A stretch of DNA of 52,492 nt from an uncultured Flammeovirgaceae bacterium. GTDB lineage: Bacteria; Bacteroidota; Bacteroidia; Cytophagales; MED-G16. This document shows positions 20,139 to 24,795 of the stretch, piece after piece (position 1 is the first letter of the stretch; the number at the start of each line of letters is the position of its first letter). The stretch covers positions 1 to 52,492 of the forward strand of contig CAJXDN010000008.1 in NCBI GenBank assembly GCA_913052485.1, read 5' to 3'. The position numbers were made by a program, and so were the translations under genes. The notes under the pieces are model-generated. The model ran no database searches, was not told the DNA's origin, and saw only the letters and a list, made by a program, of their open reading frames with translations.

Positions 20139-21387
20139 AATCTCTTGTCATATTATCACAATTGGAGATGAAATTCTTTACGGACATATTTTAGATACAA
20201 ACTCAAAGTGGTTAAGTGAAAATATAAGTTTATTAGGTTTAAAAATATCCAAGAAGTCAACAATTAGTGATAACTACAAGGAGATCACTACTTCCGTTAA
20301 TGACTCCATAGCAAAATATAATTTAACAATTCTTACCGGAGGATTGGGACCAACTAATGACGACGTAACCAAAAATTGTCTTAACGAATATTTTGGATGT
20401 GAACTTGTTTACGATAACAAAACATTAGACCATATTAAAAAAATCTTCAAGAAAAGAAATCTTGATTTTACACCTAAAAATAAACAACAGGCATTGGTGC
20501 CAGATAAATGTCAAGTTCTACACAATAAGTATGGAACAGCACCTGGCATGTCTTTTATTAAAAATAAAATGGTATTAATCTCTCTACCAGGTGTCCCTTT
20601 CGAAATGAAAAGTTTATTCAATGATGAGTGCATTAATCTAATAAAAAGTAAGTTTAAGCTACCTGTAATACACCATAGAATAATTAAAACTGTAGGGATT
20701 GGTGAATCGTGGCTATCTGATATCATCTCAGATTGGGAAAATAATCTTGATAAATCTATAAAATTAGCATACTTACCTAGCTTAGGGAGAGTAAAATTAA
20801 GGTTGACAGGACATGGAAAAGATTTAAAAAAAGTAAAATCAAAAATAAAGAAGGAGGAGATGTCTCTGATTCCTTTAATAAAAAAATATGTCTTTGGCTT
20901 TGACTCTGATGAACTTGAGAATGTTGTTGGCAAACAATTAATAAAAGAAAATAAGGATATTTCCGTAGCCGAGAGCTGTACGGGTGGTAATGTATCAAGT
21001 CTATTAACTTCTGTACCTGGCTCCTCAAAATATTTTAAAGGAGGTATGATTGCCTACAGTAATGAAATTAAAATTAATTCGTTAGAAGTACCAAAAGATA
21101 AGATAGAAAAATTTGGAGCTGTCTCAAGAGAAGTAGTTGAGGAGATGGCTAAAAAAATAAGAATTAAGTTTAAAACCTCTCTAGGAATCGCATCTTCAGG
21201 AATAGCAGGACCCGGAGGTGGTACAAAAGACAAACCGGTTGGAACAGTTTGGATCGCTATTGCTGATAAAAATAATGTATTGAGCAAAAAATTAAGTTTA
21301 ACTGACAGAAGGGATGTCAATATAACTCTATCATCTATTAGCCTATTAAATATTATAAGAATTTTTTTAGAAAAATACAGAGAATGA
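20131..21387 (+). CDS. cinA: CinA-family protein: MoaB-like domain plus PncC NMN amidohydrolase domain
   Basis: A two-domain protein of 418 residues. The N-terminal MoaB/MogA-like domain (about 5-170: ITIGDEILYGHILDTNSKWL, LTGGLGPTNDD, ALVPDKCQVLHNKYGTAPG, LISLPGVPFEM) has ADP-ribose pyrophosphatase activity in related proteins. The C-terminal PncC domain (about 260-418: VAESCTGGNVSSLLTSVPGSS, IASSGIAGPGGGTKDKPVGTVW) deamidates nicotinamide mononucleotide, feeding NAD recycling. The catalytic Ser/Thr cluster ESCTGG is intact. It overlaps folA by 8 bases and converges with a beta-barrel-like gene over 21 bases, where a hairpin lies. Confidence 0.93.
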   Translation: MSEISCHIITIGDEILYGHILDTNSKWLSENISLLGLKISKKSTISDNYKEITTSVNDSIAKYNLTILTGGLGPTNDDVTKNCLNEYFGCELVYDNKTLDHIKKIFKKRNLDFTPKNKQQALVPDKCQVLHNKYGTAPGMSFIKNKMVLISLPGVPFEMKSLFNDECINLIKSKFKLPVIHHRIIKTVGIGESWLSDIISDWENNLDKSIKLAYLPSLGRVKLRLTGHGKDLKKVKSKIKKEEMSLIPLIKKYVFGFDSDELENVVGKQLIKENKDISVAESCTGGNVSSLLTSVPGSSKYFKGGMIAYSNEIKINSLEVPKDKIEKFGAVSREVVEEMAKKIRIKFKTSLGIASSGIAGPGGGTKDKPVGTVWIAIADKNNVLSKKLSLTDRRDVNITLSSISLLNIIRIFLEKYRE

Positions 21388-22131
21388 TAATGTCATTCTC
21401 TTAAATGAACCATCCCTACTAATTATATCATCGACTATACTCTGTCCAGGAAAAGATATATCAACAGGACTCCACCAACCCCACCAAATATTATTATGGC
21501 TAGAGGAATATCTTTGAAGTAAATAACCAATTTTTAAGGAAATATGTTTCCTTCCAGATGATTTTTTTATTCCTATCGATGGGTTGAAGAAAAAACCTCC
21601 TTCCGCAGATATATAATCTTGGTTACCTAAATCCTCTCCAAAGGAATATCCTATATTATTTTCTATAAAAGGTTTAAATAAAGACCTACCTATAATAGGA
21701 AAATCATAAAAATTTTTAAAATAAAATGGAATGAAATTAATTCTATCAAGGTTAAAAATACCTGTTCCAATTCCAACATTGTAGAATTTCTCATTTACTA
21801 ATCCCTTCGCAAAAAATAATCCAACATTTGTGTAGGAGTCGATTCCCATACTAAATCCCAATTCGATATTGTTCCATGTTTTTTTTTTGAAGTCAAAGTA
21901 GTTCTTATCCTTTCTAATTTTCAATCTAAAATTTCTACCTGATTTAATTTCAAGTGTATCTTCCCACTTATTTATATAAAAAATTACATTTCCAGAATTT
22001 TTGTCTCTAATATCATAATTAGAATATTCAATCAACCTTCCATGATACCTGATACCATCTAGTACCAGTAAATCTTTTTGTGCTATTGATGAAAATGATA
22101 TTAAAAATAATATTACTAATAGTTCTCTCAC
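21367..22131 (-). CDS. Predicted outer-membrane beta-barrel-like protein, unknown function
   Basis: 254 residues starting at GTG 22131, with a cleavable-looking signal (hydrophobic 3-15, then SIAQKD). The body has many alternating, aromatic-rich short strands (ELGFSMGIDSY, NVGLFFAKGL, FNVGIGTG-like turns, ISLKIGYLLQRY). It ends TLSFSVFF, with the terminal Phe typical of outer-membrane barrel proteins. The early segment DGIRYHGRLIEYSNYDI resembles a small beta domain preceding the barrel. It starts 2 bases after the downstream LVIVD gene, so the three minus-strand genes from 23449 probably form one transcript. No specific family is recognised. Confidence 0.65.
   Translation of the reverse strand: MRELLVILFLISFSSIAQKDLLVLDGIRYHGRLIEYSNYDIRDKNSGNVIFYINKWEDTLEIKSGRNFRLKIRKDKNYFDFKKKTWNNIELGFSMGIDSYTNVGLFFAKGLVNEKFYNVGIGTGIFNLDRINFIPFYFKNFYDFPIIGRSLFKPFIENNIGYSFGEDLGNQDYISAEGGFFFNPSIGIKKSSGRKHISLKIGYLLQRYSSSHNNIWWGWWSPVDISFPGQSIVDDIISRDGSFKRMTLSFSVFF
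21379..21401. terminator. Bidirectional hairpin in the cinA convergent overlap
   Basis: AGAGAATGA (21379-21387) pairs perfectly with TCATTCTCT (21393-21401) around the 5-base loop TAATG. The stem includes the cinA stop codon and the last codons of the opposing gene. On the minus strand the stem is followed by GTATTTTTC, a U-rich tail typical of intrinsic termination; on the plus strand the tail is weak. Confidence 0.65.
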
Positions 22132-22133
22132 TT

Positions 22134-22919
22134 TTACAAACTATTAATTGGTATGGTGCTAATATATTCGATTTCTCCCAATTCACAGTCGTAATTATAT
22201 TGGTGAAAGCCATCCGAACCAATTACCATTAGCACATCCATGAACGGAATAACATCAACGGAGTTTATATCTTCAAAATGTTTTATTAGTTCAATATTGT
22301 TGAGGTTAGAAATATCATACATCTTCAAACCAAATTCGCCTTCAGTAATAAATAAACAATTCTCATCAACACCTAAACCGTGAGGATTAATCATAGGATA
22401 TGTCTTTAAAAGTAGGGGATTTCTAAGTTCTGAAATATCAATGATATCAAGCTGATTACTGAAACCTTGGCACTCTGTTCCTCCTCTTAACGTAACGAAT
22501 GCATAGTCTCCCTGGACAACCACTGGATCACAACTTGTCATGTGCTCGTAAGTTGATATCCATCGAGGAGTCTCTTTCACTTCTAGGTCATATATGTGCA
22601 TTCCACTCTGAGCTCCAATAAATAAATTGCCGTTATATGGAAAAATAGTTTCTATTCCCCACCCCAAATGTATGTCATCCCTATGAACTGGATTTACTTG
22701 ATCTGATATATCATATGACTTGAGTGTCCACGATTCAACAGTATATAGATAGTCGTCAACAATCGTAAATCTAGCCATAGATCCTCCAATACCTGTAGAG
22801 GATTCATTTCCAGATGAAAAATCAGAACTAAAGCCATTACTAGATGACAGGTTAATAGAATCATTAGAGGATTCACAACCTATAATAAATAATAAAACAA
22901 ATAATAAATTTTTCTTCAT
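22134..22919 (-). CDS. LVIVD-repeat lipoprotein, C-terminal-half type
   Basis: 261 residues with its own lipoprotein signal (LLFIIGC, Cys15), then a Ser/Asn-rich linker (about 17-45). After that come GIGGSMARFTIVDDYLYTV, LGWGIETIFPYNGNLFIG, CDPVVVQGDYAFVTLRGG, NQLDIIDIS, PMINPHGLGVDENCLFITEG and DVIPFMDVLMVIGSDGFHQYNYD. These are LVIVD-repeat blades. From memory, in other Bacteroidota this block is the second half of one protein of about 400-450 residues, with the GGSMARF segment lying mid-protein. Here it follows the first-half gene after 2 bases and in a different frame. The likely setting is the outer membrane or cell surface; the ligand is unknown. Confidence 0.82.
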   Translation of the reverse strand: MKKNLLFVLLFIIGCESSNDSINLSSSNGFSSDFSSGNESSTGIGGSMARFTIVDDYLYTVESWTLKSYDISDQVNPVHRDDIHLGWGIETIFPYNGNLFIGAQSGMHIYDLEVKETPRWISTYEHMTSCDPVVVQGDYAFVTLRGGTECQGFSNQLDIIDISELRNPLLLKTYPMINPHGLGVDENCLFITEGEFGLKMYDISNLNNIELIKHFEDINSVDVIPFMDVLMVIGSDGFHQYNYDCELGEIEYISTIPINSL

Positions 22920-22921
22920 AA

Positions 22922-23449
22922 CTAATCAAATGCAGAATTACAATCGTGATCTTCTATAAACTCCTCAACTATTTCTTCCTCATAACCAATCACAACTCCA
23001 CGTTCTTCAATGTACAAACCCTGACTTAAATAATAATTCTCAAAATTATTTTCTAACCTATTTACCTCTTTCACTGAACTAATATCGGAGATATCAAAAA
23101 CAACTAAATCAAGGTAACTATCAGCATATAAATAATCACCTTTAGTTGCTATATCGTAGTTTCCAGGCAAAACTATAAAGCCAATATTAACTGGGTTATT
23201 AATATTCCTATTATCGATAATATGAATACCTTTTTCTGTCTCACTTATATAAAGAAATCCATCTTTATAATTTAGTTTACCTGGGTTATTAATCTCCCTT
23301 GAGTCAGTATATTTTACAGAATCTCTCATAGATTCCATCGAATTATAAATTGGATCGTATACAGTATATGTTCTATAATAATCACAAGTATCTTGGCATG
23401 AAAGAAGAAGGAAAGAAAATGAAAAAAATATGTATCTTGTGAGTTTCAT
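22922..23449 (-). CDS. LVIVD-repeat lipoprotein, N-terminal-half type
   Basis: 175 residues with a lipoprotein signal (FLLLSC, Cys18) and a conserved beginning (CQDTCDYY, then SREINNPGKLNYKDGFLYISE). Two to three LVIVD-type repeats follow: GIHIIDNRNINNPVNIGFI, GNYDIATKGDYLYADSYLDLVVFDISD and KEVNRLENNF. It stops at CNSAFD, just where full-length homologues, as I recall them, would enter the linker to their second half. That second half is the next gene, 2 bases downstream. Together the two products would add up to one normal LVIVD protein. Start at ATG 23449. Confidence 0.82.
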   Translation of the reverse strand: MKLTRYIFFSFSFLLLSCQDTCDYYRTYTVYDPIYNSMESMRDSVKYTDSREINNPGKLNYKDGFLYISETEKGIHIIDNRNINNPVNIGFIVLPGNYDIATKGDYLYADSYLDLVVFDISDISSVKEVNRLENNFENYYLSQGLYIEERGVVIGYEEEIVEEFIEDHDCNSAFD

Positions 23450-23505: not shown

Positions 23506-24795
23506 ATGAATAAGATTGAAATGATAATGCCTAAAATGGGAGAGAGTATAATGGAGGGAACCATATTAAAATGGTTAAAAAAAGAGGGGGATTATATCAA
23601 AGAAGATGAATCTGTTCTAGAAGTTGCTACTGACAAAGTCGATACTGAAATTCCATCAACTTGTTCAGGTAAGATCTCACAACTTTTAGTAAAGGAGGGA
23701 GATATTGTAAATGTTGGTGCTCCTATAGCTTTAATTGAGTCTGATGAAGTTAATAATGAAGTTAGTCAAGAGAATAGTTTTGCCGATACATTAGAAAATA
23801 ATATTGAGAATTTAAAAGAAGACCTTAAACCAGATCCAACTCCAACTCCAACTCCAGAAAATAAGATTAAAGAAAATTTAAAATCAAATAATTTTTTTTC
23901 TCCACTAGTTCTGAATATTGCAAGTAGAGAAAATATAAGTATTAGTGATTTAGAAAAAATTATAGGAACTGGTGAAAATAACAGAATAACAAAATATGAT
24001 CTACTTAAATATTTAGAAGATAAAAATCTTGAGGTACCAACTAATACCCAATCTTTACCAGAGGAAATAATCTTAAAAGAGGGAGAAGAAATTATTGAGA
24101 CTGACAGAGTTAGAAAAATAATTTCTGAGAGGATGGTTGAGTCCAAGAGAATATCAGCTCACGTCACATCATTTGTTGAGGCAGATATAACTGATGTATT
24201 CAATGCCAGGAAAAAAATTAAAGATAAATTTCTTGAAAAAAATAGATTTCCGTTATCATTTAATCCTGTTTTTATAAGTTGTGTATCTAAAGCTCTTCAG
24301 GAATATCCACTCATGAATATTTCATTTAAAAATAATAAAATCATTAAAAAGAATTATATAAATATAGGTATTGCCGTTGCTTTAGAAGACGATAATTTAA
24401 TAGTACCAGTTCTAAAAGACTGTGACAAACTATCTTTCATGGAAATGGCAGAAAAATCTAATGTTCTAATAAATAATGCTAGAAATAATAATTTGTCGCC
24501 TGATGACCTTGACGGTGGAACATTCACCATCTCGAATGTTGGTTCTTTCGGAAATATAATGGGCACACCAATTATTCTACAGCCACAGGTTGGTATTTTA
24601 GCGATTGGAAGTATTCGTAAAACTCCATCGGTCATTGAGACATCTAAAGGCGATGAGATAGGAATAAGAAATAAATTATATTTATCCCATTCCTATGACC
24701 ACAGGATAATTGACGGAGCTATTGGAGGAAAATTCGCGCAAAAAGTTGCGGAAAATATTGAAAATTTCGATTTATTATCTGATATTGAATTGTAA
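23506..24795 (+). CDS. 2-oxo acid dehydrogenase E2 (lipoyl acyltransferase)
   Basis: The E2 core subunit that moves acyl groups from E1 via a lipoyl arm to CoA. The 429 residues hold one N-terminal lipoyl domain (1-76) with the lipoylated Lys44 in EVATDKVDTEI. A Thr/Pro linker (PDPTPTPTPE, encoded by a short CCAACT repeat) follows. The peripheral-subunit-binding domain is at about 130-170, and the catalytic domain at about 195-429 has TISNVGSFG and SYDHRIIDG (His399, Asp403). I cannot tell whether it belongs to a branched-chain, 2-oxoglutarate or pyruvate complex; the PKMGESIMEG start favours a branched-chain-type E2. No E1 or E3 gene is adjacent. Confidence 0.9.
   Translation: MNKIEMIMPKMGESIMEGTILKWLKKEGDYIKEDESVLEVATDKVDTEIPSTCSGKISQLLVKEGDIVNVGAPIALIESDEVNNEVSQENSFADTLENNIENLKEDLKPDPTPTPTPENKIKENLKSNNFFSPLVLNIASRENISISDLEKIIGTGENNRITKYDLLKYLEDKNLEVPTNTQSLPEEIILKEGEEIIETDRVRKIISERMVESKRISAHVTSFVEADITDVFNARKKIKDKFLEKNRFPLSFNPVFISCVSKALQEYPLMNISFKNNKIIKKNYINIGIAVALEDDNLIVPVLKDCDKLSFMEMAEKSNVLINNARNNNLSPDDLDGGTFTISNVGSFGNIMGTPIILQPQVGILAIGSIRKTPSVIETSKGDEIGIRNKLYLSHSYDHRIIDGAIGGKFAQKVAENIENFDLLSDIEL

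Follow-up and report, generated by a model that had tools for sequence, protein, structure and literature searches.

The LVIVD repeat is a 42-amino-acid (aa) unit classified in Pfam as PF08309 (PMC2447325). BtuG is a seven-bladed propeller lipoprotein of the cell surface that is bound to the BtuB barrel in the vitamin B12 complex (PMC10404256), and the surface-lipoprotein export signal of Bacteroidota consists of polar and then acidic residues past the Cys (PMC5080379). The only sequence relative with a solved structure that was found for the LVIVD proteins studied here is a haloalkylphosphorus hydrolase (PDB 5hrm), a weak match with an E value of 4e-6 over about 75 positions; going by its title, as cited in PMC11656708, the paper on this structure describes a seven-bladed beta-propeller. 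Single-chain (fused) relatives are about 410 to 500 aa long and have one N-terminal signal and a linker of 35 to 60 aa between repeats 2 and 3. Searches of the open-licence literature turned up neither split LVIVD proteins nor a propeller assembled from two lipoproteins.

The locus described here lies in a 52,492-nucleotide stretch (the window) of contig CAJXDN010000008.1 from an uncultured Flammeovirgaceae bacterium. As an earlier note on this DNA had claimed, the open reading frame (ORF) coordinates give two adjoining LVIVD genes, termed N and C, which encode products of 175 and 261 aa, lie 2 bases apart in different frames and each carry a lipoprotein signal, with the lipobox at Cys18 of N and Cys15 of C. 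The features of the locus are as follows.

22922..23449, minus strand: first gene (N), 175-aa predicted lipoprotein, repeats 1 and 2 of 7 (ORF; Pfam LVIVD, 24.3 bits; repeat profile)
22134..22919, minus strand: second gene (C), 261-aa predicted lipoprotein, repeats 3 to 7 (ORF; Pfam LVIVD, 25.8 bits; repeat profile)
22920..22921, minus strand: 2-bp gap from the N stop to the C start
23396..23449, minus strand: predicted signal peptide and lipobox of N, Cys18 (MKLTRYIFFSFSFLLLSC followed by QDTC; sequence, lipobox scan)
22875..22919, minus strand: predicted new signal peptide and lipobox of C, Cys15 (MKKNLLFVLLFIIGC followed by ESSND; sequence, lipobox scan)
22794..22874, minus strand: Ser-rich tether of C, counterpart of the end of the fused linker (alignment with fused relatives)
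23153..23266, minus strand: repeat (blade) 1, N residues 62 to 99 (repeat profile)
23048..23152, minus strand: repeat (blade) 2, N residues 100 to 134 (repeat profile)
22146..22772, minus strand: repeats (blades) 3 to 7 of C overall (repeat profile)
22772-22650, 22649-22527, 22523-22377, 22376-22254 and 22247-22146, minus strand: blades 3 to 7 singly (repeat profile)
21367..22131, minus strand: downstream partner (type A), 254 aa, predicted to be exported and barrel-like (homologue downstream in relatives)

Both products exceed the curated Pfam LVIVD cut-off of 20.2 bits, and no other LVIVD match was found in the source genome (1.19 Mb, about 78% complete). The choice-of-anchor B family (TIGR04312) scored 16.8 bits, below the NCBIfam threshold of 100 bits. 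The partner gene starts 2 bp past the C stop, and a divergent neighbour begins at 23506. A scan for sigma-70-type promoters returned sites no more numerous than in shuffled sequences.

Lipidation is predicted for both products from their lipoboxes. The residues that follow, CQDTCD in N and CESSND in C, are acidic and polar, with no clear match to the consensus motifs published for surface-exposed lipoproteins (PMC5080379). In C, the lipobox is followed by the Ser-rich tether and then by a TGIGGSMARF block, and alignment places the Ser-rich stretch and GGSMARF in the middle of the single-chain relatives, just as the earlier note had stated; the relatives belong to the order Cytophagales and not, as it had supposed, to Flavobacteriales. 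A comparison by eye of the C and N signal peptides, with a tandem-duplication origin in mind, revealed no clear similarity.

When scanned with a repeat profile, 114 of the 116 fused proteins showed seven LVIVD-type repeats, 64 of the 68 N genes had two and 59 of the 68 C genes had five; the split therefore falls between blades 2 and 3. A profile made from repeats 3 to 7 alone still recovers both repeats of the window N product. The N gene of the window's family ends 4 to 5 residues beyond the conserved Cys at which the linker of the fused proteins begins. The first product thus does stop near the start of the linker as suggested earlier, but it holds two sevenths of the repeats rather than an N-terminal half. 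The intact protein is probably a seven-bladed propeller, judging from the repeat count. One-chain and two-chain forms are both common across Cytophagales and the phylum Bacteroidota, and two-gene versions are not rare, with 56 other split loci collected across the phylum; the relatives' genomes were sampled out of larger groups, and these counts are not frequencies. In six genomes, a fused LVIVD gene occurs alongside a separate pair of split LVIVD genes (loci L094, L087, L090, L095, L098, and L103 with L093, L086, L091, L096, L097, and L102), so the fused and split lineages coexist rather than being simple alternatives. In a fused subgroup (L101, L102, L104, L105, and L174), the N-terminal lipobox and a short segment before blade 1 seem to be lost, and the proteins start with an apparent ordinary signal peptide.

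The same split, which the earlier note had proposed to look for in related genomes, is present in all 12 genomes of the window's own family that hold the locus, the window's included (two are cut by contig ends). These genomes are separate single-cell or metagenome assemblies, whose named records are uncultured Marinoscillum, Flammeovirgaceae or MED-G19, and the surrounding gene order is alike in most of them. Across the wider survey of relatives, every genome with a C gene also has an N gene. In all family members the N stop and the C start are either set apart by a small gap or overlap slightly, but not to the same extent (2 bp, 4 bp, or an overlap of 8 to 10 bp), which means that the relative frame of the two genes is not conserved. 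All 12 family C genes carry a lipobox, compared with 4 of 6,431 internal segments of fused proteins to which an artificial MKK start had been added, so the C lipobox is more than a product of chance. Among the 12 family N genes, a lipobox was scored in 9, two others have FYSC and one is cut. The dN/dS ratios range from 0.03 to 0.13 in both genes, although in the more distant pairs, where dS is saturated, they are rough, and dN is similar in N and C in each comparison. Both genes are under strong purifying selection, and since both are kept in this way, the two pieces are probably still parts of one protein.

Outside its own family, the nearest relatives of the window C gene are all fused. In a tree of 183 rows, the family pairs (100*) are nested in a clade of 112 fused genes (95*), and most other split pairs lie outside this clade. 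In IQ-TREE analyses of subsets, the starred set (96 to 97) comprised nine fused genes and the family. Separate trees of the first and second parts agree with nesting in the fused lineage, the first-part tree resting on few columns. One clade for all split pairs was rejected (p-AU of 0.032), a modest value for a group that was chosen after inspection of the tree. Support at the deep nodes is weak, and the LVIVD family as a whole has no fixed root. A chimera of a first gene from the fused lineage and a second gene from the split lineage was considered and found no support, as both parts are placed with the same fused relatives. These results support the window pair as a derived fission within a single-gene lineage.

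The downstream genes give an independent view of the lineages. The 254-aa partner had no significant match in Pfam or NCBIfam and may be a barrel-like protein, as read from its signal peptide, alternating strands and aromatic C-terminus. Across the phylum, most fused LVIVD genes have a homologue of it next downstream, often beginning only a few bases from the LVIVD stop. This type A partner immediately follows all 10 of the family pairs that could be tested and 83 of the 116 distinct fused loci, compared with none of the 56 other split loci, of which 38 are followed instead by a different barrel-like gene (type B), one example of which matches DUF3575. In 32 of the 116 fused loci, and in 16 of the 56 split loci outside the family, no recognised partner lies downstream. 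The tree of 183 rows places the single-chain gene L107:4942-6240 (G057) within the split lineage, and this gene carries the type B (DUF3575-type) partner. Partner type hence tracks lineage and not gene state, which points to fission in the window's family and probably to fusion in G057; L107 is likely a gene fusion and the mirror image of the window's fission. The gene fission put forward in the earlier note is therefore supported by nesting inside the fused clade, by retention of the fused lineage's partner and by nearest relatives that are single genes.

Taken together, we have good confidence in a derived fission within a conserved envelope operon, whose lipidated pieces would supply two and five blades of one propeller beside a barrel. 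The ancestor would have been a single lipoprotein with seven LVIVD-type repeats, the second and third of them joined by a flexible linker, its gene already followed by one for a small barrel-like outer-membrane protein. The break may have occurred in the linker, in the ancestor of this family of marine Cytophagales, and the downstream part would have acquired a start codon, signal peptide and lipobox of its own. N and C would now be made from one short operon, exported and lipidated, and may assemble in the envelope as the two-blade and five-blade pieces of one seven-bladed beta-propeller that works beside its barrel-like outer-membrane partner. The 2 + 5 = 7 repeat count, the constant adjacency of the genes and their similar constraint are the grounds on which we infer this assembly, and N and C probably still form one protein.

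An apparent case of plain frameshift in a fused gene does exist among the relatives: L143:1573-2999 (G177), whose sister L165 (G293) is fused and whose downstream piece, unlike that of the window, lacks a signal peptide. For the window, the probability of a sequencing or assembly frameshift or of a decaying pseudogene is negligible: the identical split in every family genome with the locus, from separate assemblies, led us to reject an assembly or sequencing frameshift, and a new lipobox in every family C gene and the low dN/dS of both genes also argue against this rival. Programmed frameshifting or stop bypass that still yields one fused chain would suit genes just 2 bp apart, yet it is very improbable given that the spacing, and with it the relative frame, is not kept in the family and that the fused product would bear a hydrophobic signal peptide in mid-protein.

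The two-gene state could instead be ancestral and have been kept in the window's family, with the fused relatives a product of fusion. Two-gene lineages with their own signals are widespread in the phylum, at least one fusion has probably occurred (L107 in G057, inside the split lineage) and the overall root is not fixed, but we regard this as unlikely because the family nests among fused genes in all trees, a single split clade is disfavoured by the AU test and the family carries the partner of the fused lineage and not that of the split lineage. An ancestral two-gene state, which the earlier note had named as refuting a fission, does not hold for the window's lineage, although a separate two-gene lineage exists elsewhere. 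Another reading is that both products are exported but act independently, so that no propeller is rebuilt. Each has a predicted anchor of its own, and the contact proposed between them is read from sequence features; nevertheless, independence appears rather doubtful when N and C together hold the same seven repeats as 114 of 116 fused proteins, their genes are always together and adjacent, and the constraint on them is similar. The fission, with the two products probably associated as 2 + 5 blades, is thus the preferred reading.

This locus would provide a natural case of fission in which the freed part could remain in the compartment of its partner only by acquiring an export and lipidation signal of its own. 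Fused, split and apparently re-fused forms occur in one protein family with lineage-specific partner genes, and it is therefore directly testable how an exported repeat protein comes to be split and at what cost. The locus also suggests that an as yet unnamed lipoprotein-barrel gene pair is widespread in Bacteroidota. More generally, we lean slightly towards the idea that envelope complexes of Bacteroidota include a propeller of two separately exported, lipid-anchored chains (2 + 5) by a small barrel, and that the family switches between one and two chains in both directions while the barrel type stays with the lineage.

Among known systems, the single-chain Bacteroidota LVIVD lipoproteins resemble the window most closely in having seven repeats in the same order, an N-terminal lipobox and, in most loci, the type A downstream partner, but they are one chain with one signal, in which a linker takes the place of the gene boundary and second signal of the window. 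The two-gene pairs of the other Bacteroidota lineage (L087, L095, L133, and others) share the 2 + 5 repeats on adjacent genes, most with a lipobox on each gene, but differ in their position in the tree and in the DUF3575-type gene downstream in 38 of 56 loci. There is no sign that the window proteins share the metal centre or activity of the haloalkylphosphorus hydrolase 5hrm. The BtuG-BtuB complex may be likened to the proposed system in its way of working only, as a propeller lipoprotein at the outer membrane with a barrel; BtuG is one chain, and its barrel is a TonB-dependent transporter, whereas the window would combine a two-chain propeller with a small barrel-like partner.
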